Assembly (NCBI GenBank): GCA_028554795.2
Contig: CM068831.1
Coordinates: forward strand, 29,788,659-29,852,658
Length of the DNA stretch: 64,000 nucleotides
Reading direction: 5' to 3'
DNA from: Sinohyriopsis cumingii
Taxonomy: Eukaryota; Mollusca; Bivalvia; Unionida; Unionidae
Shown here one piece after another: positions 1-30,168 of the stretch. The stretch's first letter is position 1. Every line of letters starts with the position of its first letter. Position numbers and translations under genes: made by a program. The notes beneath the pieces are model-generated. The model worked only from the letters and a program-made list of their open reading frames with translations. It was not told the origin of the DNA and ran no database searches.

Positions 1-136
1 CTCGTTAGGGGTTGGACATCAAATTGCGACTAGTGTATTCTGCGTATGCCATATGCCCTGCTTTTCGAGCCATAGTCTGGCAACATCTACCAGCTTTTTG
101 ATCTCAGTTAAGTCTCACGAGTTGCAGTATATGAGT
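1..136 (-). pseudogene. Fragment of a second rve-type integrase, N-terminal part, running off the window
   Basis: Read on the minus strand, this edge encodes a short stretch with the pattern KKLVDVARLWLEKQGIW, followed after a break by PTPNE. That resembles the N-terminal region of the integrase at 5275-6228, which has KLAEAANVI, then EKWLAIW, then VPNEVH just ahead of its first catalytic Asp. The order and spacing match by eye, with stops and a shift inside. The rest would lie left of position 1. If right, the window opens inside another copy of the same element, or this element carried two integrases. The match is short and the frame is broken, so the call is tentative. Confidence 0.45.
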
Positions 137-290
137 ATTATACCTTGCTTTGCAAATCGAAAGCTATTTTAAAGGACAACAATTACACAGGAAACAAGAG
201 AAAATAGGGGTTATGCACTTGTGTAATCACAAATATCCACGCAAGTCCCCACCCACCACTAGATTGGGTTTCTCGCCAGTGTCCGAGGAA

Positions 291-593
291 GCAGCAGAGG
301 GGGCGAATCCTAAAACTTTTCAGGCAAAAAAAAAGGGCGAAATAAACCCTTTATAAACCCGCGATGACGCTTGTAAACGTAATTGTCGCCGTTGTTGCTG
401 CATTTTGTTGTCGTCTCCCCCAGCAGAGGGGGCTAATCCCACAACTTTTAGAAGCCTCAAAAGCGAAATAAAGCCTTAAAAAAATCTACAGACAACTTTT
501 AGAAAGCCTCCAAACGCCGAAATGACGCTTCATTGTAAACGTAATTGTCGCCGTCGTTGCTGCGTTTTGTTGTCGTCGCCCCCTCTGCTGCTG
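291..593. repeat. Two GC-richer direct repeat units plus an inverted motif upstream of the first element gene
   Basis: Two related units of about 130-155 bp follow each other. Each starts with GCAGAGGGGGC followed by an AACTTTT block and a GCGAAATAAA block, and ends with GTAAACGTAATTGTCGCCG and a GTTGTCGTC tail. The ends of the units are at 373-416 and 535-578. The motif at 291-306 recurs inverted at about 577-593 (CCCCCTCTGCTGCTG). The block is richer in G+C than its surroundings and lies just ahead of the ATG at 621. It could be a subterminal or junction repeat of the element, a promoter region or an origin; nothing in the sequence decides between these. Confidence 0.7.
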
Positions 594-620
594 TAAATTA
601 AAAATTTAAGTTAACAAATA

Positions 621-1105
621 ATGGCCAACATTGGAGAAGTACATTCCGCTAAATTAGCCCGAGAGCGACTAGCCGCAATTGAGAAATTTCTTTCTGTGAG
701 AAATTCTGTAAGACAAAAATTGAAAGAACGTCAGCAAGCACAAGTTGAATTTGCAACAGGTGCAGAACAATTATTTAAACGTCACAACAGCTACTGAGAA
801 AGCTGCGGCGATCACAGAAAGAGCTTTATTGGGAGATGAAATAGGTATTCTTCCAGTGCTAAAACAAACCGCCGAGCAGACTGAAAAAATTGCTAGAAGA
901 ACTAAAAAAAACAAAAACACTTTTACAAGGTCTTCCAACTGCTGCAGCTCAACCTCCACCCACTGCCGAAGAAGGCACTGAATTCGCTGAAGCTGCTGCA
1001 CCCAAAGCAGCAAACGAAAGTGTTGAACTGACTGCAAAATTTAATCCGGCTTTTATTAAACCCCTTAAGAGCACAGCAGAAGTATCTAATACATCTGAAA
1101 CATAA
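621..1105 (+). pseudogene. Broken alanine-rich, coiled-coil-like element gene of unknown function
   Basis: An ATG at 621 opens a charged helical frame (KLARERLAAIEKFL, then a Lys/Arg/Gln-rich stretch) that stops at 795-797. The reading continues in a second frame (745 to about 905, TATEKAAAITERALLGDEIG) and then a third (890 to 1105, LEELKKTKTLLQGLP, then an Ala/Pro/Glu-rich tail). The three pieces abut without overlap of content, so this was most likely one gene of about 160 codons with two frameshifts. It is hydrophilic, has heptad-like stretches and shows no recognised domain, signal peptide or membrane segment. Its position as first plus-strand gene after the repeat block suggests an element protein, possibly structural or DNA-associated, but that is inference. 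Its 3' end converges on the minus-strand HNH gene. Confidence 0.45.
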
Positions 1106-1109
1106 CAAA

Positions 1110-1598
1110 ATGAAATCCATTCTTCATTCTTCTGTGAAGATGCTGATTTGGTTATTTTATCTGCTACATATTGAACCAAGCGCGAGTTAATGCCGAAATA
1201 CTTGACAGCTGCTTACATTGACTGAAATATTATTTCTTTACCGATCTCAGTCTTTACGGATTTAACTGCCTTCCTTGCAACTGCAACTGATTTACATCTC
1301 CCAGAACTCCGACGTGCAGAATTCTCGCTCTGTGTGATGGCTTGCAGGTTATTCAAACCGCTATTGAGTTTTCGTCTGACAATATGATCGATCACAAGAC
1401 CGTTTTTGATCACCCCGTGAAAAGTCTCGTATATAAACTTATGACAGTACTACCTCTTCCTCCCAACGTTGAATATAAGATAACCAGTATTATCAACAGC
1501 ATCAACTGTTTTTTCCGCTGACAGTGTCTGATTACACCATCACGAGATGCTTCATGATTCGTAAGGATAGGATGTCTGACAAATTCATTTTGGTCCAT
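1110..1598 (-). pseudogene. HNH homing-type endonuclease (NUMOD/HNH_3-like), broken
   Basis: Starting from the ATG at 1598, the minus strand first encodes RHPILTNHEASRDGVIRH, a typical N-terminal NUMOD4-like lead-in in which a residue pattern introduces the HNH fold. After a frameshift near the T6 run at 1509-1514 the frame carries GLVIDHI, then LNNLQAITQSEN (about 1395-1330). This is the DH...N core of the HNH_3 family found in phage and large-DNA-virus homing genes. One TAG interrupts the middle part (about 1450) and another stop lies at 1213-1215. Beyond it, INSRLVQYVADKITKSAS and a Trp-rich end resemble a NUMOD1/IENR1 DNA-binding tail. Such enzymes cut DNA and often spread their own gene. 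The location of the C-terminus is approximate, since it runs into the 3' end of the plus-strand gene at 621-1105. Confidence 0.75.
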
Positions 1599-1741
1599 TT
1601 ATATATAATACTATTTGTCTAAATTATAATTTGTTTTCACAAATCTAGCTATATAATCTTCAGGGTTTCTTATAACCTATATATCAAGGGCAGAGTCTTT
1701 GACAACGTCAGGGTTGTTATGTTTTTTCACATAATATCGTT

Positions 1742-1950
1742 TTAGTACTCTACAATTTTTACCACCAAAAAGCACACATAACTACATTTCCCACTAACTG
1801 CAACACCACACCGTAAGCACGGTTTTGGACCAAGACTTTCTCGACGCACGCTTTGCAAATATTGTCGGCAGAATTCATTTACACAAGATTTAATACAAGG
1901 AGTTGCATACGCTATCGGCAGCCAATTTGTTAGTTCTTTGTTTCAGTCAT
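1742..1950 (-). pseudogene. Small Cys-rich frame, possible zinc-binding protein
   Basis: A minus-strand frame is open for 64 codons from 1936 to a TAA at 1744-1742. An ATG sits at 1950-1948, two bases out of phase with it. The frame contains CIKSC, then C about six residues later, then PKPCLRCG and two further Cys. This spacing is compatible with a small zinc-binding fold, but no family was recognised. It lies between the HNH gene and the start of the polymerase fusion gene and points away from the latter. A short open frame could occur by chance; the clustered Cys pairs are the only reason it is listed. Confidence 0.3.
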
Positions 1951-1953
1951 TGC

Positions 1954-1995
1954 ATATATATTATTTTTTATTTAAATATTTGTCTAAAATATAAT
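1954..1995 (+). promoter_or_regulatory. AT-rich leader between the divergent Cys-rich frame and the polymerase gene
   Basis: About 45 bases made almost only of A and T, with TATATA-like runs, separate the minus-strand ATG at 1950 from the plus-strand ATG at 1996. A shared promoter is plausible by position, but no specific element is recognised. Confidence 0.25.
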
Positions 1996-3834
1996 ATGGA
2001 AGAGTTTGAGAGATTATGTACAATCTAGCCTTGGAAAACTTCGTTTCCTGTATCCAGATTCGATCTTGAGAGAATAACTCCTGACTTGCGCAGGCGAACT
2101 CTGGCTGATCCGACGATTAATCTGATTAATAATATTCGAGATGCTAAACAAGAATTTCGTGACGATGGGACACCTTACGTATTGTCAACATTCAAAATTA
2201 TACGCGACGTCGAAGTCATTGTTGACGCTACAATGAACGATGAGCGGGCGAAAATGATTATCGATTATCTCAACGATCAAAAATATTTTTTTCAGAATAA
2301 AATTTGTTGTATTATCAGAAACAGACAATCCCAGCGCTGAGTCGATTATCCGTGACAAACATGACCCTGTCCTTGTTAATAGGAAAACTGCTGTGCTAAG
2401 TAAACTTACCAAACCAGGAATGTTGACCGGTATTGATAAGCCATATTACGAACGAGGGTATCATATAACAGCGGCTATTTATGGAATCTATTCGCTAAAT
2501 GATAACCCCAACACTAATGATCTTACGTAAATGAGATTGTCAAGACTAAATTGTGTAGCCGAACGAGTAATCGGAAATTTTACAAACGCCATACGTGGAA
2601 ATGGGTTAACGGATCAGCGACGTGAAAAAAATAAACAAATGGGCTGAATCGGTCAAGGATACCGGAACTACAATAAATTATGTCGCTAAGTTGGAAAAAA
2701 ATGCTAAAATTCCCAATAAGGTAGCAAAGATAACAGAAGATATTTTACACGATTCGAAACATTATAAAAAGTGGGGAGTTGCAATAAATATCGTTGGTCA
2801 TTATGAGCATGCGAGGACTAGTGCAGTGATAATATTTCCACGAGATCGAACCGTAAGAATTTATCCTCAAGACTCTGGGGGAAACATGTTTCATTTTATT
2901 CACGAAAAAAGCAAAAATGATCCTGTATCAATATGGCTATTTGAAAGTTCCGATGATGAAATATATGATCAATTTGTACGGCCTAACGGCGAAATATATC
3001 ATAAAGAATATCTCCACGAAGAAATGAAAAGTCTTGCGCAGAAATTTTCAACAGAGAATACTGAAAAATTGTTGAATAATTGTTTTGCAGTTCCATCTGT
3101 TGAAGCTCACTTTGCGAGAGAAAAAATTTCGTGGAAGCAAACACGATTTGAATACCGAGTATGACCACAACGATGTTGTCTCGGTTGATATCGTCGCGTG
3201 TTATCCGGGGAGTTTTCTTGGTTACGGAAAGTGTTCTGGATATTTTAAAAGATTTGGACACCCCACACACGAGATGACTAGAGTATCAATAAACAGACCC
3301 TACCTGCTTTTGATCTAACTGGATTCGAATCATTCGAGTTTGCTGAAGGTCTTCATCCGATCTGTCATATTTGGTTTGGTAGGCACTTTTCAGAGAAACT
3401 TTGGGCACCAATAGTGCTGTTACGATATATGCTTGATTGCAAAATAATAATATTGTTGATTGTAAGTGAAGCAATTATATCATACCGTCCTCAGAAAGAA
3501 GTTTGGTTACCACCACCTGATGAAAATAAAATCGCAAAAGATCTTGGCAGAAGAATAATTGGTAAATTTACTCAAAACGGAGCATATGATCATAAAAGAC
3601 AATGTTGAACTCGATTTTATAATTGCTGTAGCAACGAAGAGAAATATATGTGCAAGTCGCGAAACTGCTTACATGTCTAACGGAACATGATTAGGTACAA
3701 TTGTTGATCATATTGATGGCGAGTCACCTCATTTTACTCGTTTTAGATCTTCAATGCTTGCTTATGTTTCGATAAATTTATTATCGATGATAAACAGATT
3801 CCCTACCAATGCAGTCAAAGTTGCAACGGATTAG
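1996..3834 (+). pseudogene. Family-B DNA polymerase, N-terminal part of a polymerase-helicase-HNH fusion, broken
   Basis: The reading starts at an ATG at 1996 and stops at 2026. It resumes in frame +1 (to 2340), shifts at the T7 run 2286-2292, runs on with a TAA at 2528, and shifts again at the A7 run 2625-2631 into an open stretch to 3164. The first ~380 codons are not assigned to a known domain; an exonuclease domain would be expected there, but I do not see its motifs clearly. Palm motifs are visible: motif A as DIVACYPG (Asp codon 3187-3189), a motif-B-like GKFTQNG (3561-3581), and motif C as ATD followed by a TAG at 3832-3834, where the Ser of the usual DTDS-like motif would be. Another stop is at 3688-3690. 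The frame after motif C runs straight into a helicase Walker A, so the two are one protein. It resembles the protein-primed or Polinton-side PolB group by motif only; the exact subgroup is not fixed. DNA replication of the element is the inferred role. Confidence 0.8.
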
Positions 3835-4994
3835 TTTTATATTGAAAGAAAATATTCAGAATTACTGATTCAATGTGTGACTCATGATGCATCGTGGGAG
3901 AATAAAAAACAAGAAACTTTATATAATTATTCCGAATCCGCAGATGTTGCGGTTAAAGATATTTATCATAAAAATAATCAGATATCAAAATTATCGTCTG
4001 CGGCATCCGTACATCATCCAGTATCCCGACACAAGACTGTTTATCTATACGGACCCGGTAGTTCTGGTACAACAACGCGAGCTATTGAATTATATCGCAT
4101 ATTTCAGATGATATGGTTGTTTTAAAACATACACACAGACTCGCAAGAGAAATTAAACAAAGAGGAGTGCGATCATGTACTTATTATAGCTTTTTCCAAT
4201 GGAAGGGTGACACATGGACTAATGACCGAATGGGCGAGAAGTACATTCCAAGGATCATCAATTGGGATGAAGTATGCGCAGTATCTAAAGATACATTAAA
4301 AATGTTTCTCTATTGGCTGTTATTGAAAAATACAGATGTGATCATGTGCGGCGATCATGGACAACCACCGCCGTTTGTTGGGTTATCCCCGCCCAAATGG
4401 TTAAATAATTTTGCAGATTATTATGAAGAAGTTACTGATGAACATAGATCTCTTGATCCAGAATTAAGGGAGATTAAAAAATTAATCAGACTACAACCGA
4501 ATAAAATTCAGTGTGAAATAATGCGTAAAATAATTTCAGAAACGTCTATGAAAGATATTCTGCAGGTGTGGAGACCAAATGATTTGATAGTGGCAAGAAG
4601 AAAGATAGTTCGTGATACTCTTCAACAACGGTTATTTCAGTTGCATAAAGAAAAAATTTCAGATCTACGTGTACCAACGTATTATAGACCAGTTGATACA
4701 CGACAACATAATATCGACGTTGATATACAAAGACGGACTGAGAAACAGAATCTCGTATTAAATGATGTTGTCGCAGTTGATGCTAGTGTTGTTGAGGATG
4801 CGCTGAGCGCGAACAAGACTCCATGGACGCTGGGATACGCATTGACAATTCATTCATCTGAGAGGTTAACTATCTTTGATACAGTTGTTTGGATCGTCGA
4901 TGATCGTGTCGAATGGGCAAACCTAGTTTATCCTGCAGTGTTTCGAGCCAGAAGAATATCTAAACTGCGGAGAATTGTCATAGACACTACATAA
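3835..4994 (+). pseudogene. SF1 helicase domain (Pif1/RecD-like) fused downstream of PolB
   Basis: The frame holding polymerase motif C stays open from 3835 to 4125 and contains YLYGPGSSGTTTRAIEL, a Walker A in which the essential Lys of GK[ST] is replaced by Thr (codon 4069-4071). After a frameshift near 4110 an 882-bp frame (4113-4994) follows. It has THRLA (motif Ia region), a Walker B as INWDEV (Asp-Glu codons 4266-4271), motif III as CGDHGQPPP (4350-4373), and a C-terminal GYALTIHSSERLT (4833-4871) in which the usual Gln-Gly pair is Glu-Arg. AFRARR at the end matches the position of motif VI. The order and spacing fit a 5'-3' SF1B helicase, which would unwind DNA for the fused polymerase. 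Loss of the Walker Lys and the motif V change mean this copy cannot hydrolyse ATP normally. Confidence 0.88.
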
Positions 4995-5282
4995 ACCATT
5001 GATAATGTTATTAATAGTGATATAGTAAAAAAAATAGCTGGTTATAAACAATGTGACAAAAACAAAGAACGAGACATTGATCTTGATATTGAATTTGTCA
5101 TAGCACTGAGACAACAGCAGAATAATCATTGTGCAAGTTGCAATACAGTAATGCTGTGGAAATATTCAAATAATTATCCAAGACAATTTACCGTAAATTG
5201 AAAAGTAAGTAGTCTTGGTCATACACGCGAAAATGTGATGCTAACCGGTATTGAGTGCAATCGACGTAGGGGTGCTAGTTAA
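4995..5282 (+). pseudogene. C-terminal HNH nuclease domain of the polymerase-helicase fusion
   Basis: After the TAA at 4992-4994 the same reading frame stays open except for a TGA at 5199-5201 and ends at a TAA at 5280-5282. It encodes a charged linker, then HCASCNTVMLW (CxxC, Cys codons 5130 and 5139), PRQFTVN, LGHTRENVMLTGIECNRRRG. This is the layout of zinc-containing HNH (His-Me finger) nucleases, in which two CxxC pairs clamp the core. The first Cys of the second pair is Gly here, and the catalytic region is interrupted by the TGA. Because it shares the helicase frame with only one stop between them, I read it as the third domain of one polyprotein, not a separate gene. No start codon of its own is evident. 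Its job may be nicking at the replication start or resolution; this is inference. Confidence 0.7.
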
Positions 5283-6228
5283 GTGATCGCGGTGGTAATT
5301 GTGTGTCTTCAGGAATTACTTGTAATTGTTCACGTGTAAATCCACATTGAGGAGCAGTTGAATCTAATCTGTAGATTGCGGATCTACCGTGGATCATACC
5401 ATGCTGGAAATTGTATGTGTCGTAATACTCTAGATACGATGAGTTGCTCTTTTTTACCACCTTCAAGTTCAACGGGTTCATATAAATATCTCACAGTCAT
5501 ATTACATAATATTGGTTGTTTTGAAAAAATCATGTCTTTGTACGGGTATATTTTTTTTTGGTAATTGCATTAATGGGTTTCATAGAAGTTGTTCGAGTAA
5601 TTTCATTATTTAATGCAGATATAACACTTGGTAATCTTGCAACCCATTCGCGAGATCTCATATCTTGAATTATTTCCTTCGCATACTGATATCCAAATAA
5701 CCGCTCAGCAAGTATTCGATTAAATCGTTCAACAATTGCCTGTTCACGATGAATTGCAGTATGTCCTCGTCGTATTTCAACGTTATGCTTTTTCATCAAC
5801 GATGATATTGGACCCTGAAATTCTTTGCCAGGATCAACTTGTAATAAATGTGGCCATCGTAGACCAGCACGTTGATAAATTCGTTCAAACGCTATAGCTA
5901 CTTCAGTTGCTGTTTTAGTTAATAGCGGCTCTGATTCTTTATACCTACTTGCAACGTCCACAACAGTTAACGCGTACCTGAATGTTACTCGACTCTTCTA
6001 ATTTTAATAGTATCATGTGGTAAAAATAAAATATCCACCTAATGAACTTCATTTGGAACGCTGACATCAAAGTGTGCATTCTAAATAATTTTAGGTGGTG
6101 GTAGAAATTTGCCATATTGCTAACCATTTTTCAGCAGAAACACGTATAACATTTGCTGCTTCGGCGAGTTTACTAATCGCTGCTCTACCTTTCCAATATC
6201 TCCTTGGACTATAATAAATCGATTCCAT
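5275..6228 (-). pseudogene. rve-type integrase (retroviral-like DDE), broken in several places
   Basis: An ATG at 6228-6226 begins a Tyr/Lys-rich N-terminal region with a helix-turn-helix-like segment (AISKLAEAANV, EKWLAIW). The first catalytic Asp is in VDILFLPHD (codon 6035-6033), preceded by a TAG at 6041-6039. A long intact stretch, 5961 to 5530, holds DVASRYKESEPL, the second Asp in QVDPGKEF (5835-5833) and the Glu in IVERFNR (5730-5728), 34 residues further on, giving a D,D34E pattern. After a TGA at 5532-5530 the same frame resumes and ends with CGFTREQLQVIPEDTQLPP (C-terminal domain, to 5275). The total of about 310 codons is close to the family's size. The gene starts 16 bp after the PLA2 gene ends, on the same strand, so the two may have been co-transcribed. 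It would insert the element's DNA into the host genome. Frameshifts in all three frames make this copy inactive. Confidence 0.93.
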
Positions 6229-6243
6229 TATAATAATAATTGA

Positions 6244-6681
6244 TTAATTACCGGCTCCTAATGCTAGTTTATCTTTCATGGCAGATCTTACTAACCAATT
6301 AGCTAATGATTCTTTGAAAGGTTTCTTTTTTAAGAACTTTATTGGCACATGAATTAAATTTACATCTGTGATATGTCGCTGCTGAAGATCTTTACTTTTA
6401 TAAGCTACAGCATGAGCGTGACACGCTTTATCAATAGCGTTTACTGGATACTCACCAGGCCTTGGCTGATCTTGGTTATCGAGTCTGATACCAAGTCTGG
6501 TACCAGGATCGCAGTAATTATGTCCTGGAAGGTCTTTTTCTCCTGGGTATTTTTCTCCTGGGTATTTTCCCCATGGTGTTCCTGGTAACTTTGTTAACTG
6601 CGCGGCAATATCACCTCCCTTTTTTTTAGTCTTGCCCGTTGGTTTGTCAGCGGAAATAAACTTAAATTTTTTGTACCACAT
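6244..6681 (-). CDS. Phospholipase A2-like protein (parvovirus VP1u/Polinton type), catalytic Asp lost
   Basis: This is the only long open frame of the element, 145 codons from the ATG at 6681 to the stop at 6244. A Lys/Gly-rich start is followed by a short tandem repeat (KYPGE twice, residues 39-48) and then LPGHNYCDPGTRL (51-63). The latter matches the calcium-binding loop YxGPG[TN] of the Phospholip_A2_4 family except that Gly is Asp (residue 58). The active-site helix reads DKACHAHAVAY (84-94): His-90 is present, but the Asp that should follow it is Ala-91. Asp-106 and a basic tail complete the fold. In parvoviruses this domain opens the endosome during entry; in this element it is inferred to belong to a virion protein. 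With the HD pair altered it is probably inactive. A zinc ribbon lies immediately upstream in shifted frames (6682-6793) and was probably the same protein. It is followed by the integrase on the same strand. Confidence 0.82.
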   Translation of the reverse strand: MWYKKFKFISADKPTGKTKKKGGDIAAQLTKLPGTPWGKYPGEKYPGEKDLPGHNYCDPGTRLGIRLDNQDQPRPGEYPVNAIDKACHAHAVAYKSKDLQQRHITDVNLIHVPIKFLKKKPFKESLANWLVRSAMKDKLALGAGN

Positions 6682-6793
6682 CGTTCACACTTACCCGTAA
6701 GTACTTGTCGTTTATTTTTCGTAGTTGTAGGTGTTAGTCCACTTGTGGAGGGGGGGGGGGCTTACGCGCCCTGCATTTCACACAATATATATA
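6682..6793 (-). pseudogene. DUF5679-like zinc ribbon, N-terminal part of the PLA2 protein
   Basis: On the minus strand 6790-6760 encodes YCVKCRARK, an 11-C run (6760-6750) shifts the frame, and the next piece encodes TGKCERCGTKN just before the PLA2 frame. The two CxxC pairs, the Gly-Lys before the second pair and the CGTK end match the DUF5679 zinc ribbon seen in virus and archaeal proteins. A second small shift at the A6 run near 6668-6673 leads to the PLA2 frame. Upstream of YCVKC a TGA at 6796-6794 precedes it, so the original start is not determined. DUF5679 fused to a PLA2 is inferred from the abutting frames. Confidence 0.6.
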
Positions 6794-6821
6794 TCAATAT
6801 TATTTATTATATTTCTACATC
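6794..6821. promoter_or_regulatory. Short AT-rich divergent intergenic gap between zinc ribbon/PLA2 and ATPase genes
   Basis: Fewer than 30 bases, nearly all A and T, separate the minus-strand zinc ribbon from the plus-strand ATPase start at 6822. Divergent transcription from this gap is likely by position; no motif is recognised. Confidence 0.25.
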
Positions 6822-7431
6822 ATGGATGTAACTGATTTTACAGCGACACGAAAGCAATTGTTACTTAGTTTAATAATGAAGTGGATCAAATGGGATAAAT
6901 TGTATTGAGTTGCTCCGTCAGTTGATGATCAGACATGTTACGAAATACATAAGGATTTTAATGAAAATGCAAAGTTGTTAAACAAAGACGTTATTGAATT
7001 TATTACTGATATTAATGAAGCGCCATCCGTAGATGGCATTGATGGATTTATTAACAATTTAGTTGCATATGTCCATGCAATGCTAGAAAAACAGTCAAAT
7101 CCAGCTCGGATATTTTCTCGAGGCAGGCATAAAAACACGGAAGTGATTTATGTTACTCAGCGGTATACCCATATTCCTAAAGTGATCAGAGACAACTGTA
7201 ATATTTTACTTGTATTTAACGGAGTTGACACATACTCTGCGAAATATCCACCAGGCTTGGTTCAGGGGAGATATGGACATAATTAAGTGTAGAAATTTAT
7301 TTAGTCAGGCTCAGTCAACCCCGCATGGATTTATAACAATAAACTTACATGTCGCACGATCGCGTTATCGTATAGGTCTTGATAAAAAATTTTGGATAAC
7401 AGCAGCAATGAGGGTGCGACCTCTCCGTTAA
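6822..7431 (+). pseudogene. A32/FtsK-type genome-packaging ATPase, C-terminal portion, broken
   Basis: An ATG at 6822 starts a frame open to 7286 apart from a TGA at 6906-6908. It holds LIMKWIKWDKLY, then APSVDDQTCYEIHKDFN, and later RGRHKNTEVIYVTQRYTHIP (7119 onward). That last block is the conserved sensor and Arg region of the HerA/FtsK packaging ATPases of Polintons and large DNA viruses. After a frameshift at about 7260, frame +1 finishes with a Gly-Phe-rich, basic C-terminus to 7431. The Walker A lies ahead of LLLSLIMKW in homologues but is not recognisable here, and the Walker B Asp-Asp is absent (LVAYVHAM where it should be). The enzyme would load DNA into the capsid. It is followed by a direct repeat and not by a capsid gene. 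Confidence 0.8.
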
Positions 7432-7547
7432 GGAATCTCGTATATACTTTTTTGCCTGGCCCTTCCAATGAAGCCTTCCTTCTTGAAAGTTTTATTTTTC
7501 AAAATGGATCCTTCCCCCGTTAAGGTAAGCCGTATATACTTCTTTGC
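7425..7547. repeat. Two 31-bp direct repeats 92 bp apart at the right end of the ATPase gene
   Basis: CCGTTAAGG followed by a short variable part, CGTATATACTT and TTTGC appears at 7425-7455 and again at 7517-7547 with three or four mismatches. The first copy spans the ATPase stop. It may be a 3'-end/polyadenylation-related duplication or part of a terminal repeat of the element. Confidence 0.7.
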
Positions 7548-9956
7548 TCGAATTTATTGAGGTGGGTTCGCCTCTTCTGCTGGTAGGTGACAGTACCAAT
7601 GGTGCACCATTTTGTTTTCAAATAAAAATAGCACCCTGTCTGTATGACAACCATTGTAAGGCCTCTGAGAGTTTGAGTCCAACCCTGGAAGGAGTGGAAG
7701 AGCTGAAGTTTTCATTTACAACTGGGGATTATTTCAAAACACCCTTTTTACAACTTGTGATTATCTCAAAACACCCCTTTACGCTTATTATACAGAAGCA
7801 GTCAAGTTAAAGATTTGAGGTTGCAAGGACAAATGAGGATCGGCTTGGAATAACTGGAGCAAGAATAAAAGTATCCGTCTTAGCTAAATCGATATAGATA
7901 TAGTCGTTCCAAAATATTTCTTTGGATCAAGCAGGTAGTATGGTTGCTAATTTCGTATGAAAACAGTCATATGAAACACAATGCATCATAATATCATTCA
8001 AGCCACTCAATGCGGTCATTATTTGTAAATGAAGAGTTAAAAGGAAACAAAATGATCAGGAATTGCTTGATGAAACTAGAGTTTTTGAGCAATGAAGATA
8101 CCTAGATATGTCATCCTTGTGATACAAGGTCAAATACGCACGTTTCTGTGTATCTGCATATATAGCTTCCTCAAGTTGGATTAAGGCCAAAGGTAAATGA
8201 TCAAGAGTGGCATGTGTGTAACAAGAAAAGAATCAGTCCCCAATTTGAAATAAAGTTACCGCATCTGCATGCAAAATAACCGAATGGAATAAATATTGGT
8301 ATTATTTTAAAACTTACAATGATTGCATGTTTCAGCATATTATATAATAAACTTATTGGTCTCAATTATGTCTTTCTCCATAACGTCGTTTTATAACTGT
8401 CCTACTATATTTCTCATGTAGCGAGCATTTGCAAGAAGTCAATGCAAAAGAGAATATTTCATAATATATGTATATAGTTCAACTGTAAATACTGGCCTTT
8501 ATCCAGTTTGAAGAGTTTACTAAGCTTTGTAAAGTTTTGCATTTTGTAGAAAAATAATAGCTAAAGTTACATTAAATTGTAACTCTAATTCTAGTCATTC
8601 CTGTCTATCCCTATTGCCCGAGTTAGAGTCTAGACCATACATCTAGGCCTACGTCAACGTCGCCATAACACTGTGATATCCAGCAACTAAACCGACTGCG
8701 CCAAAGAAGTAAGCCCAAAATGTTGCTATAATGGTACTAATATCAACAAACAGATGTACATGTGTGTACTCGGCTATCTGTGATATATTACGGCTTGTCA
8801 TCGGAAAGATATTCAGTTTATGTTTGAACAGTTGAAAAGTTGGCAATTGACAATCGAAGAATCATGTGTAGATGCATACATTCTAAATCTATCTGTTTAT
8901 TCGTACCTTGAAAATAGTTTAAATATTAGAGAAGTTATAATATACCCACAGAAATGAGGTAAGCTTTCACACCGTAACTAATTCTGATTTGTACCTGTCG
9001 TGTACATATTAAAGTGTATGCCTATCGTCTGAGTGAAGAATGAATTTGCCATGACATGTAGAACATATTTGCTTGTTCGTACTACATACACTATACTAAA
9101 CATTTGAGAAAATGAATGGCACCATGTCAAACTGTAGTGTCTTAGTGGTGTTTACAATTTGGTACTAAATACACTTATGAATCACGGTTCTAATATTTTT
9201 TTAAATGCATGTATAATGTATTACAGTTTTCCAGCAACAGAATACTGAGTGCATGGTACAAATAAATAAGGAATAATTTAAAGTTTGATCTGAGAATATT
9301 TTTCTACTTCAATGCCTCAGCACAATTAGAGTTTCAAACTCTCTGTTAAATATCGGTTCTGTTTCTTTTCCACATTACGTTACCTATTGCGAATATGTAT
9401 CATAGACTGTTTGGAGGTGACCTCTTCACACTTCATTATACAGCTATGAATACAGTAGAATTTTTTCTACTCTAAAGAACGGTGTTATCAAAGATCAATA
9501 TAGAATGCCAAGTAGCAGAAGCTTAATGCTGGTGTGTCTTAATTAATTTTACAGAAAATCAAAAAGTGGTCCTTCTGGTAGGTTAGATATTTCAAATTCA
9601 TGTAGATCCTTAAGTGAACTAAATGACTTTTAATTAAACGTATGATGACACATTGCGGCGATAATAACACATTGGGATGCATGTACTAATATTTCTGAAT
9701 CAAATTCATTTTAGACCCCCTCAGAATATTTACACTCAAAGAGGCAGCTGAATTCGTCAACCAAAATGTTCATGTCGATAAATATCTTCAAACTTAATGA
9801 TGGTAAGCAAAAATAAATCTGGTACATTGGTTTTCATATCGTTAAAATTACAACGAATCATTCTTGAGAGTTTGTAAAAATACCTCCTGAACAGCTGGAA
9901 AATGCAATAAATTTGACTTTGTTTTTTGAAAATAAGTGGTTTGGTCTGGCCGCCCA
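7548..9956. other. Non-coding stretch, no gene recognised
   Basis: AT-rich DNA with only short open frames; the longest (7544-7810, 88 codons) has no recognisable feature. The right boundary of the virus-like element probably lies near the start of this stretch. Confidence 0.5.
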
Positions 9957-11592: not shown

Positions 11593-13065
11593 AATCTGGC
11601 CGCCCGACGCAGCAAAACACATTCATAAATCTAGTTAGAACCTCCATAATTACCTTATTGTATGTGTATTTCGTTTTATCCCCATTGAATGAATAGCTAT
11701 TAAAGTCGTGTTGTTTGTAACATATAATAGGTTGTAAAAATGTGAAAAGAAAAGAGATATTACTAAACATTTGGTTTTGAAATGGCGAGTTGTAAAGTAA
11801 TGGGACGGCCGAGTTTGATATGATTTATATTGATCCAAAACCATCATATCTTTATATACCAAAGAGCATTACAAAGTTACCATGACAAATATAATGTAAA
11901 CTCCTCTGAAAGAGGCACAGTGGTGTTATCGAGTATATATGTGCATAGCTATATTACCTGTTGGAGAGGTTTTAATACAAGTTATGCTGTACATGTATAA
12001 GTAGGCATCCGATTCACGGTCAAATGTTTTGCAGACGGTTAAAAACATTTGATTACGTGCACTTGTATTTGAAAGTGCAACGGGCGTACCTATTAAGTTA
12101 TAGCAAATCTTATAAAGTCTTCCTGTAACTACAGTTAAAATCACTTTCAAATGTCAAACCAAATATTGAATATGTATATTAGTACAGGTTGTTAGAATGA
12201 ACAGTATCAATGAAGTAAAAGAGAAGAACAAACAAAAGAAGGGGCATGTATGATCGGATTGATATAGTTGGAAGGATAGAATATAAGATCTAAGTTACAA
12301 AGACCTTGTTATCTCGACTCAAGAGAAACAAATTGTGGGACCATGAATGTCTCTAACACTAAAACTCATTTGTATGAATTGTAAAGAATATAGCTGCTAG
12401 TATTTTATGCAAATTTGTAACTTAATGCAGACCAGATTTCAGGCAAAGAATAAACTTAGACAGGTTTTAGTATTACTTGCTCGAGGATTGCACACACTGA
12501 TGAACTCGTAGGGATTCATCCTGTAAACCATAGTATTTAGACTTACATTATTGTGGTACGAGGTACATAGACCAATTTCAAATTAGGCCGCCCCCATAAA
12601 TAAATAAATAAATAAATGAAAAGTAATATAAAAGAAGTTTGTAAAAAAATAATGATAATAATAATAATAATAATCGCCATCATCATCATCATCATCAATA
12701 TCATTTCTCTGTGTTGCGGGGCCCTGGAGCAACTCCTCCACTTGCCCCTCCTGTAATCCAGCTTTTCCCAGAAACCCCTTAACTATGCAATCATATTGCG
12801 GTCTTTAACGGAGAGTGTGAAATATTCAGTTGTAAGACGATATCATAAAATCCAATCCATGCAGCATTATACATTTATATAGGACTCGACATAATACATA
12901 TACAGTCTATATTAGTGTAGATACCGAGACGAGGAGATCCCATTAAGAGGTTACATTATTTGTCTTGTCTACGCATTGGTGACGCTGAGAATAGAATTCC
13001 CTTGAGTCGGTGCCAAACGGCACATCAATTATATTTGTCAAGCAACTATCTTGTCGCTTTCGCTC
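11593..13065. other. Non-coding stretch with ATA/CAT trinucleotide runs
   Basis: No gene recognised. It contains (AAAT)n near 12595-12617, (ATA)n at 12649-12674 followed by (CAT)n at 12678-12698. At 12978-13015 a short segment resembles the reverse complement of 18703-18735. Confidence 0.6.
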
Positions 13066-18366: not shown

Positions 18367-21323
18367 AAAATAAGTGGCACCACGGAATTTACATTTTATC
18401 ATGGGGGGGGGGAGATGGGGCGTTGTGCTTTTTGTGAGGAAAACCTTCCGGCTTCCAAATAGCTTCAAAATAATTTTCTTGCCCTGTTGTTTAGAAAACA
18501 AGAACTTATATATCAGATATAGTTGTTGAAGAAATTAATAGCTTTTCTTGAAGCCAATAAAGCAAAATATATTTTGATCCAAATAAAATCCGAAACTGTC
18601 TTCGTTAAATAGTCGGTCCTTAACGCTAGAAATAAACTGAATTCATATGATGTTCCATGTATGAAAAAACAAAAGACAAATATAATCATTGTCTGATCTG
18701 GTACCGACTCAAGGGAATCCTATTCTTAGCGGTACGCTCTGTCTGTTCCTCAGCGGAGTAATACCAAATAAAAAATGTGTAATCCCTCGACTGGTATTTG
18801 TTTGCATCGGCGCCAAAAGTGGTATATGTTATACCCGTCTCATGTCGAGTCCTATTAAAATATATAATTATGTATGGATTAGATTGCCATATTTCCAACA
18901 ATTGAATATTCTCTACTGTCCGTTAAAGAGCACCAGAGCAGTAAAATGACTACAAATAGAGAGGGTTGTATGCAATACCGGATTAAAGGAAAAATAAATA
19001 GAACAGTTGTTCCAGGGTCCCCGCAACGTAGTTGATTATTATATTTTTTAATTCTTTATTTCTTTATTTCTGTATTTTGTTTATTTCCTTCGGGGTGTGA
19101 CGCCTGTTTGAAATTGCCGTAGGGGTTCCTTCCTGGTTATATTCAAGGCTAAATATAATCGATTACGGGTAAATCCCTCTTACATATAATTTCTGCACTC
19201 TGCAGGCAAAATAATATGACATACGTCCCTTGTATTCTTTCCCAGTAATAAGAAACTTGCTGAAGAAATTTGTATTATTTACACTTTTAAATAATAATAA
19301 TAATAATAATGATAATAACAATAACAATGTCACATATATATTTTTCTTAAATGATCGACGTTCAGTTTATTTCATTTAAATCAGGAAAATGTCCGTTAAT
19401 GACATTGTCCTGTATTTGAATGTGTTCAAAGTGATTTAGTTTTCATTACCTCTCTTACTCTACTCTCTATATTCGAATTAGCATAAAAGAAGTTTCATAC
19501 TCGATCGTTTTGTCGATTTTTCGGCCATAGGGTATTATTGCAACTGTTTAAATCACACAAGTGGGTCCAGTTGGATATTATGTGATATAAAGTGTCAGCT
19601 GCATGCAAGCATGTTCATGGCGTGTTGGTATCATAGGTGCGCTGTCAATATTCTTAATAACTATGTGAGACAGAGGTGTGCGGTATTACCGGTATACCAG
19701 TTTAACGCGGTATATTTTCTTTCTAACAACTGTAGGTACCACAATACGTTTTTACTGTAGTGGAACCTCTGTCGTTTCCGTCAATAAGAAATGTGCAGAA
19801 ATTCGTGAGTAATCTTACTACGAATTACATTATATTCAAAGCATGTTTTCATTTCTCAGGACAAAATAATTCCAAAAATATTAAAACATTTTTACAAAAC
19901 AGTTGCATTTGCCTCACATTAATTTTGAATATGACAAATATAATTATAGTTATGAACCTTTAATGACATGTTTGACACGAATCATGTGTGACAACATGGC
20001 TGCCGCAAGTGATGTTTCAAAAGATATTCGGACCACATCCTTATTTTGGAAATATTTCGGACCTTACAAATAGGAATTATTAGCTTATGTGTGAAGTACA
20101 TGCATTCCTTTCAAAGACCTATAATCATCCATTGATTTCATAAGATCACTTGCTTTCTGTCTGAAGTTTAAGAATTTCTCTAGTACACTAAATATTTTCT
20201 CATTTGTTGTGACAGTGTGTTTTATGTTTACTGGTCTTCTTTGATAAATATCTTGCCCGGGTGTTGGCATCACATTTCAAGTTTCCCAACCTACTATATC
20301 AATAGAATAGCTAGTAAATTATAGGCGTCCGTATAGACAATTTATATTTTTATCAAAAAGCTCTATAGTCAGCACAATTATGGTGTAAACTTAATCGTCC
20401 CTATTTTGTTAAACTTTTTAGGTGACAACTTATACACAATTAACATACAAGTAGCAAGGTCATTTACATAAAGATATCGACAATTTAATTTTCCGGATGT
20501 GGGTGGGTGGGCTGCGATGATTTTTAGAGCCGAGATATTTTGTCTTGTTTTATCTCAAGATAATTTGTTTTTTTTTTAAACAATATAATGGATATAATAT
20601 GGTGTTAATTGGGCTAGAAATCAGAGCAAGATAAGAGTTTCAATTATTTGAGAGCAGTAAATCCCAAACAAATCCTTGGATCCTGACCCATAATATAATA
20701 TTGTTGGCCCTAAATATGATTGTGGTATTCTGTTGTACGTTTCACCGTATGTTAAGAAATAGCTCGGTACAAAAGATTTTGTGGTGCCCATCTCTAGTGT
20801 GAGATTTGATATGTTAATGGGTATTTTCAAAGCTCGTATTTTTCAAAATGAAATCTTGTAATTATAATTCTCAAATATAAACTAGACTTTAATGCATTCA
20901 TAATATGGTGTGATTATACTCTGTAGGCATTAAACAAGAGAAGAAAGAGAGAATAATTTAAACACAGAACACTCAAAGACGTATAAACCAAGGCTAAGAA
21001 AAATTAAAGACAAGGGATATAATGCAGTTTACAGACATGGTGCAGGGAGTTCAAAATTGCAACATCATAATGGAATACGTTCATCGTTTACACAGCAAAG
21101 CATATTCACTGCCTTTGCCAATCAAGGATCTAATTTGATGTACTAGAGAATTATGTAGACTTAATAGTCTGAAGTAATGATAATAGTACGATTAATTGCA
21201 GATCAAAATAAATGCATAACAAATCAAAGCAGTATATTCTCTGCATAATTCTCATGCAAATTAATTTGTTCCATCATGTTTTCATATCCTGATAAAAAAT
21301 ATGGTTTATTATTTTATTCTATC

Positions 21324-29841: not shown

Positions 29842-30168
29842 ATGACCTCTCTGGTGGCCTAGTGGTTAGAGCGTCCGCATCGGATGCGGAAGGTTGCGGG
29901 TTCGAATCCCGGCCAAATCATACCAAAGACTTAAGAAAATGGTACTAAAAGCTGCCTCACTAGGCGCCCAGCATTTAGAGGTTAGTATTAGGACTGGTCG
30001 GCCTGTGTCAGGATAACGTGACTCTGTGTTGAATGATAGTATATGTCTGCGGCATGATGCCTCAGTGCTAGACATCACTATAAAGTACCACACTATAGAC
30101 GCCGTAGCGATATGACTCCAAAACCGTTAAAGCTAAGTTAATCATCCAAATCGCACATACACACACAC
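29842..30168 (+). mobile_element. Family-1 tRNA-derived SINE with intact A and B boxes
   Basis: TGGCCTAGTGG (A box) and GGTTCGAATCCC (B box) are both well preserved, making it the best Pol III promoter in the window. The end is a CACACA run. Copy B lacks it: CCCACAATCTAATT runs directly into CCATAAGAGAAATAT at 40495-40533. The flanks AAGAGTAATAT and AAGGGAAAAAT may be a diverged target duplication. Confidence 0.9.

Follow-up and report, generated by a model that had tools for sequence, protein, structure and literature searches.

The gene at positions 1996 to 5282 (+) of the window, the 64,000-nucleotide stretch of Sinohyriopsis cumingii DNA analyzed here, is very probably the replication gene, now dead, of a polinton-like virus (PLV) that integrated into the genome, and a member of the family termed "Tlr1-like helicases" (pPolB-S1H fusions). 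It is a single broken gene whose intact relatives carry the polymerase, helicase and HNH domains in one polypeptide. This three-domain architecture is real but previously described, and the gene adds a new branch to a class already known, since PolB-SF1-nuclease fusions have already been published for PLVs (PMC11071308 and PMC12721341, in their accessible parts); the novelty implied by the earlier note on this DNA thus falls away.

Stop-to-stop open pieces of at least 20 amino acids, from both strands of the first 9.5 kb, were compared with 221 homologues using a cut-off of E<=1e-3. The homologues are the matches listed from three protein searches, the third contributing its best 120 of 150. 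All 12 matching pieces fall within 2029-5279, on the + strand and in order; they are colinear with P0179, an intact relative of 1,176 amino acids, which they cover from residue 15 to residue 1172 (1,118 of 1,176 residues). Among 316 pieces of the reversed sequence none matched the homologue set, and just one of 20 two-base-block shuffles gave any match to it. The ATG at 1996 opens the sequence MEEFERL, similar to the openings MEEIERL of relative P0177 and MGFERL of P0179, and the HNH part ends at 5279, which agrees with the extent proposed in the earlier note. The domains lie in the order seen in intact relatives, but in broken pieces (Table 1). A Pfam scan of the window pieces returned no polymerase match, and its helicase matches were all sub-threshold, so profiles alone would miss the gene.

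Table 1. Features of the broken replicase gene and its neighbours, in window coordinates.
Feature	Position	Strand	Evidence
Gene start and N-terminal domain (terminal-protein position), broken	1996..2340	+	Piece 2029-2337 matches P0179 15-94, E 2e-21
OTU-protease-like region, three pieces	2258..3164	+	Pieces 2258-2527, 2531-2644 and 2610-3161 colinear with P0179 87-374
OTU-like Cys motif	2549-2566	+	NCVAER
OTU-like His motif	2796-2816	+	GHYEHAR
Family-B polymerase palm	3151..3834	+	Motif A DIVACYPGSF 3187-3216; GKFTQ 3561; motif C VATD 3820-3831, then stop
SF1 (Pif1/RecD-like) helicase	3835..4994	+	Walker A position 4051-4077; WDE 4260-4277; GDHGQPPP 4350-4373
C-terminal HNH (endonuclease VII-like) domain, two pieces	4995..5282	+	Match P0179 1075-1145 and 1147-1172
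Retroviral-type (rve) integrase remnant	5530..5997	-	Tail to tail with polymerase gene; Pfam rve E 0.0011, below cut-off
Phospholipase A2-like protein piece	6244..6681	-	PF08398 E 7.8e-07, above cut-off
Packaging ATPase remnant (A32/terminase-like)	6975..7286	+	PF04665 Pox_A32 E 4.7e-4, below cut-off; PHROG terminase large subunit 6.4e-06

Between the 12 pieces the reading frame shifts six times and meets five in-frame stops, with an additional stop just 3' of the gene start, so the gene is broken far more often than had been claimed. An open frame after motif C holding a Walker A motif had been described at this place; the frame (3835-4125) and the Walker A position starting at 4051 were both recovered, but the motif reads GPGSSGTTT and its lysine is lost. 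The helicase frame had also been said to continue past a single TAA into the HNH domain: it is indeed open over 4089-4991 and followed by a TAA and then the HNH, but "a single TAA" is incomplete, because the HNH region holds a second, internal stop. The window HNH keeps a CxxC at 5130-5141, and its second Cys pair is altered. Since the Walker A lysine is lost and a stop directly follows motif C, the window copy is presumably dead and would be unable to yield a working protein.

In intact relatives the polymerase, helicase and HNH domains are one polypeptide, because 32 of the 221 listed homologues (P0179 included) span the region from before motif A to the HNH in a single alignment to P0179 and in one ORF, while the step from motif C to Walker A is crossed within a single alignment in 102 of the same 221, P0179 again counted. 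With strict patterns, motif C, Walker A and HNH were found together in 21 of the 221 listed proteins, 11 of which also have motif A, and 9 of these 11 have the OTU pair as well. The ORF of intact relatives has about 1,130-1,275 codons and reads, in order, N-terminal domain, OTU-like stretch, protein-primed-type palm, SF1 (Pif1/RecD-like) helicase and HNH. Some intact copies of the family sit on megabase-size contigs; P0116 (1,268 aa), which represents 46 member sequences, comes from a contig almost 3 Mb long. The earlier note had proposed that the three enzymes form one polypeptide, to be refuted by a stop and a separate start between domains in intact copies; no such interruption was present in them, and the proposal holds.

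Upstream of the palm there is an OTU-like stretch with a conserved Cys/His pair, overlooked before, which resembles an OTU protease; OTU chains rank first, with weak Z scores, in the fold list of relative P0190. The N-terminus forms an alpha/beta domain in the structure model, with unconvincing matches to known folds. The palm is that of a family-B polymerase of the protein-primed type and the SF1 helicase is fused C-terminal to it, both being features present in the family. In the 221 listed proteins scanned, motif C was found in 121, none of which has DTD and 110 of which have ATDS; the window has VATD. The alignment with phi29 starts at phi29 residue 52, so part of the exonuclease fold may persist; neither a terminal-protein fold nor an exonuclease-only match is listed in the fold searches, which has no bearing on their presence or absence.

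The palm, the helicase, motif C and the C-terminal nuclease correspond to those of the published Tlr1-like helicases, described in the accessible part of PMC11071308 as PLV and transpoviron proteins with the layout TP-vOTU-palm-S1H in which the exonuclease is absent, the first Asp of motif C is missing, and a C-terminal GIY-YIG or HNH occurs in different PLVs. The family analyzed here likewise has, in order, an N-terminal domain, a stretch that may be a vOTU, palm, SF1 helicase and C-terminal nuclease, and lacks that Asp, its HNH being the variant reported for some PLVs. Tlr1 itself, an element of Tetrahymena, has an rve integrase, as found beside the gene here, but carries GIY-YIG where this family has HNH; the likeness is to its published description. 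Fusions of pPolB to SF1 are known from transpovirons too (PMC11071308, PMC12721341, accessible parts), and the published accounts, as far as they could be consulted, place the class in ciliates, algae, other protists and giant-virus parasites, whereas the hosts named in the records here belong to the animals and the arbuscular mycorrhizal fungi. OmPLV, an endogenous polinton-like virus of Oxyrrhis marina, also has pPolB and an SF1 helicase joined in a single chain, but with the helicase N-terminal (the opposite order) and the exonuclease retained, and the accessible part of its description does not mention an HNH.

The role of the HNH domain admits two readings. By a loose pattern its signature is present in 67 of the 73 listed proteins that extend 80 residues or more past the helicase, the exceptions being P0026, P0220, P0048, P0044, P0057 and P0096. 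When the HNH regions of seven relatives were cut out, PHROG endonuclease VII was the best profile in 7/7 (best 7.4e-17), whereas T4 endonuclease VII-type nucleases are separate proteins and the HNH here is part of the replicase. Pfam detected HNH weakly in 5/7 cut-outs and Endonuclease_7 in 2/7 (best E 0.0076); a sequence search against solved structures gave PacI as the best match (E 0.0082), with endonuclease VII not among the matches. The resemblance to endonuclease VII and the near-constant retention are hints of a working junction nuclease. The published reading for a nuclease at this position is instead that of a selfish homing endonuclease, a former invader of the gene without a replication role: in their accessible parts, PMC11071308 suggests intein-type invasions for GIY-YIG and HNH domains, and PMC12220804 regards those of PLVs as homing endonucleases. 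We consider this a serious contender, at somewhat under an even chance, that fits poorly with the 67 of 73 retention and the endonuclease VII profile, as well as with an HNH common to the fungal clade and the clade of the named molluscs. Because the domain occurs in both clades and matches that profile, the evidence leans towards a replication role, and the homing reading stands beside it. That the HNH is so constant means that the idea of a homing passenger can be tested.

Integrase-like, phospholipase A2-like and packaging-ATPase-like pieces lie next to the gene (Table 1). The integrase remnant matches the NCBIfam IS481 transposase model (5.5e-11, below its cut-off); a shorter piece of it, 5530-5961, does not reach Pfam rve, and the integrase piece found no match among solved structures. 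The phospholipase A2-like piece adjoins the replicase and presumably belongs to the same element. No capsid gene was recognised near the gene, and a search for terminal inverted repeats over window 1-9500 gave seven short pairs, none convincing. Upstream, short Ala/Lys/Glu-rich open frames at 745-1105 (+), two pieces of which have no Pfam match, are perhaps another remnant gene, and a 51-nt direct repeat (371-421 and 533-583, 94% alike) has a spacing of 162 bases. Farther along the window there are a tRNA-Pro-like gene at 29849-29919 (+), above the Rfam gathering score, which could be a tRNA-derived repeat, and an inverted pair at 12983-13039 and 18675-18731 (57-nt arms, 81% complementary, 5.6 kb apart), perhaps a dispersed repeat.

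Polintons/Mavericks and adintoviruses share with this element a protein-primed polymerase, an rve integrase, a packaging ATPase and an integrated linear form, but their pPolB stands alone, while here it is fused to helicase and HNH. That the locus is an ordinary element of this kind, with a helicase from another element inserted alongside, would suit the integrase-like and ATPase-like neighbours; it is nevertheless very improbable, given that the polymerase is fused in intact relatives and that the first Asp of motif C is missing in 121/121 listed proteins with the motif. Stops between and within the domains of the window copy could suggest that separate adjacent polymerase, helicase and HNH genes only look joined through a coincidence of decay, but this is scarcely credible against the spanning ORFs and alignments described above and the identical domain order of the fungal-clade proteins P0033 and P0182, and separate neighbouring genes are ruled out by the intact ORFs unless all of these are mis-predicted.

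For the PLV replicase that we favour, the domain families suggest a working scheme. The N-terminal domain would act as a terminal protein priming DNA synthesis, to be freed through cleavage by the OTU domain; the palm would copy the linear genome, with the helicase fused to it displacing the other strand, and cutting of DNA, branched or of unit length, may fall to the HNH. Insertion of the genome would be the task of the neighbouring integrase, and packaging that of the ATPase. Such a chain may be read as the "self-contained replisome" of the earlier note.

Relatives had been expected in other invertebrates, and records named for invertebrates were found. Among the molluscs, Sinanodonta woodiana P0008 and Elysia marginata P0027 each have the palm end and helicase, Bradybaena similaris P0020 is a helicase fragment, and the Elysia crispata gene models P0121 and P0129 hold palm, Walker A and HNH motifs within one protein, their place outside the 32 being due to helicases that align only partly. 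The coral Desmophyllum pertusum (P0171) has the N-terminal and polymerase side. In fungi, Diversispora (P0033) and Racocetra (P0182) each have palm motif C, Walker A and HNH, and further records with relatives are from Gigaspora and Cetraspora. The records under the name Thiodiazotropha, which are MAGs of clam symbionts, probably carry host DNA. In a midpoint-rooted helicase tree of 101 sequences, built without Tlr1 or transpovirons, the window groups with Sinanodonta in a clade of 11 members (support 1.0), and one clade of 7 unites the fungal sequences (support 1.0).

Scans of viral contigs with P0001 and A2 gave no relatives, and phage records showed local similarity only, to helicases or HNH-like stretches, none with at least 80% query coverage. 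The genome contig scan gave one locus, L001, with a relative at 1811-2805 that is itself broken; its contig, of 3,152 bp, is assigned to a Diapherotrites archaeon MAG and is probably eukaryotic or viral DNA that was misbinned. Our literature search, beyond which most subscription literature lay, found no published report of the fusion in animal or mycorrhizal-fungus hosts, and PMC10120064, in its accessible part, gives a hint of cnidarian elements that fall outside the main group of Polintons. Novelty may lie in the hosts: relatives, some of them partial, occur in records that bear the names of molluscs, a coral and arbuscular mycorrhizal fungi.

A bolder proposal, which we hold only tentatively and think rather unlikely as a whole, is that animals (molluscs, coral) and arbuscular mycorrhizal fungi have their own large pPolB-S1H virus lineages and that the HNH there is a built-in endonuclease VII-type resolvase debranching or trimming the genome, one polyprotein thus priming, copying, unwinding and processing. 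Intact copies in a family with mollusc and fungal records would widen the host range of the fusion class, and intact proteins would allow the predicted polymerase, helicase, protease and nuclease activities to be tested.
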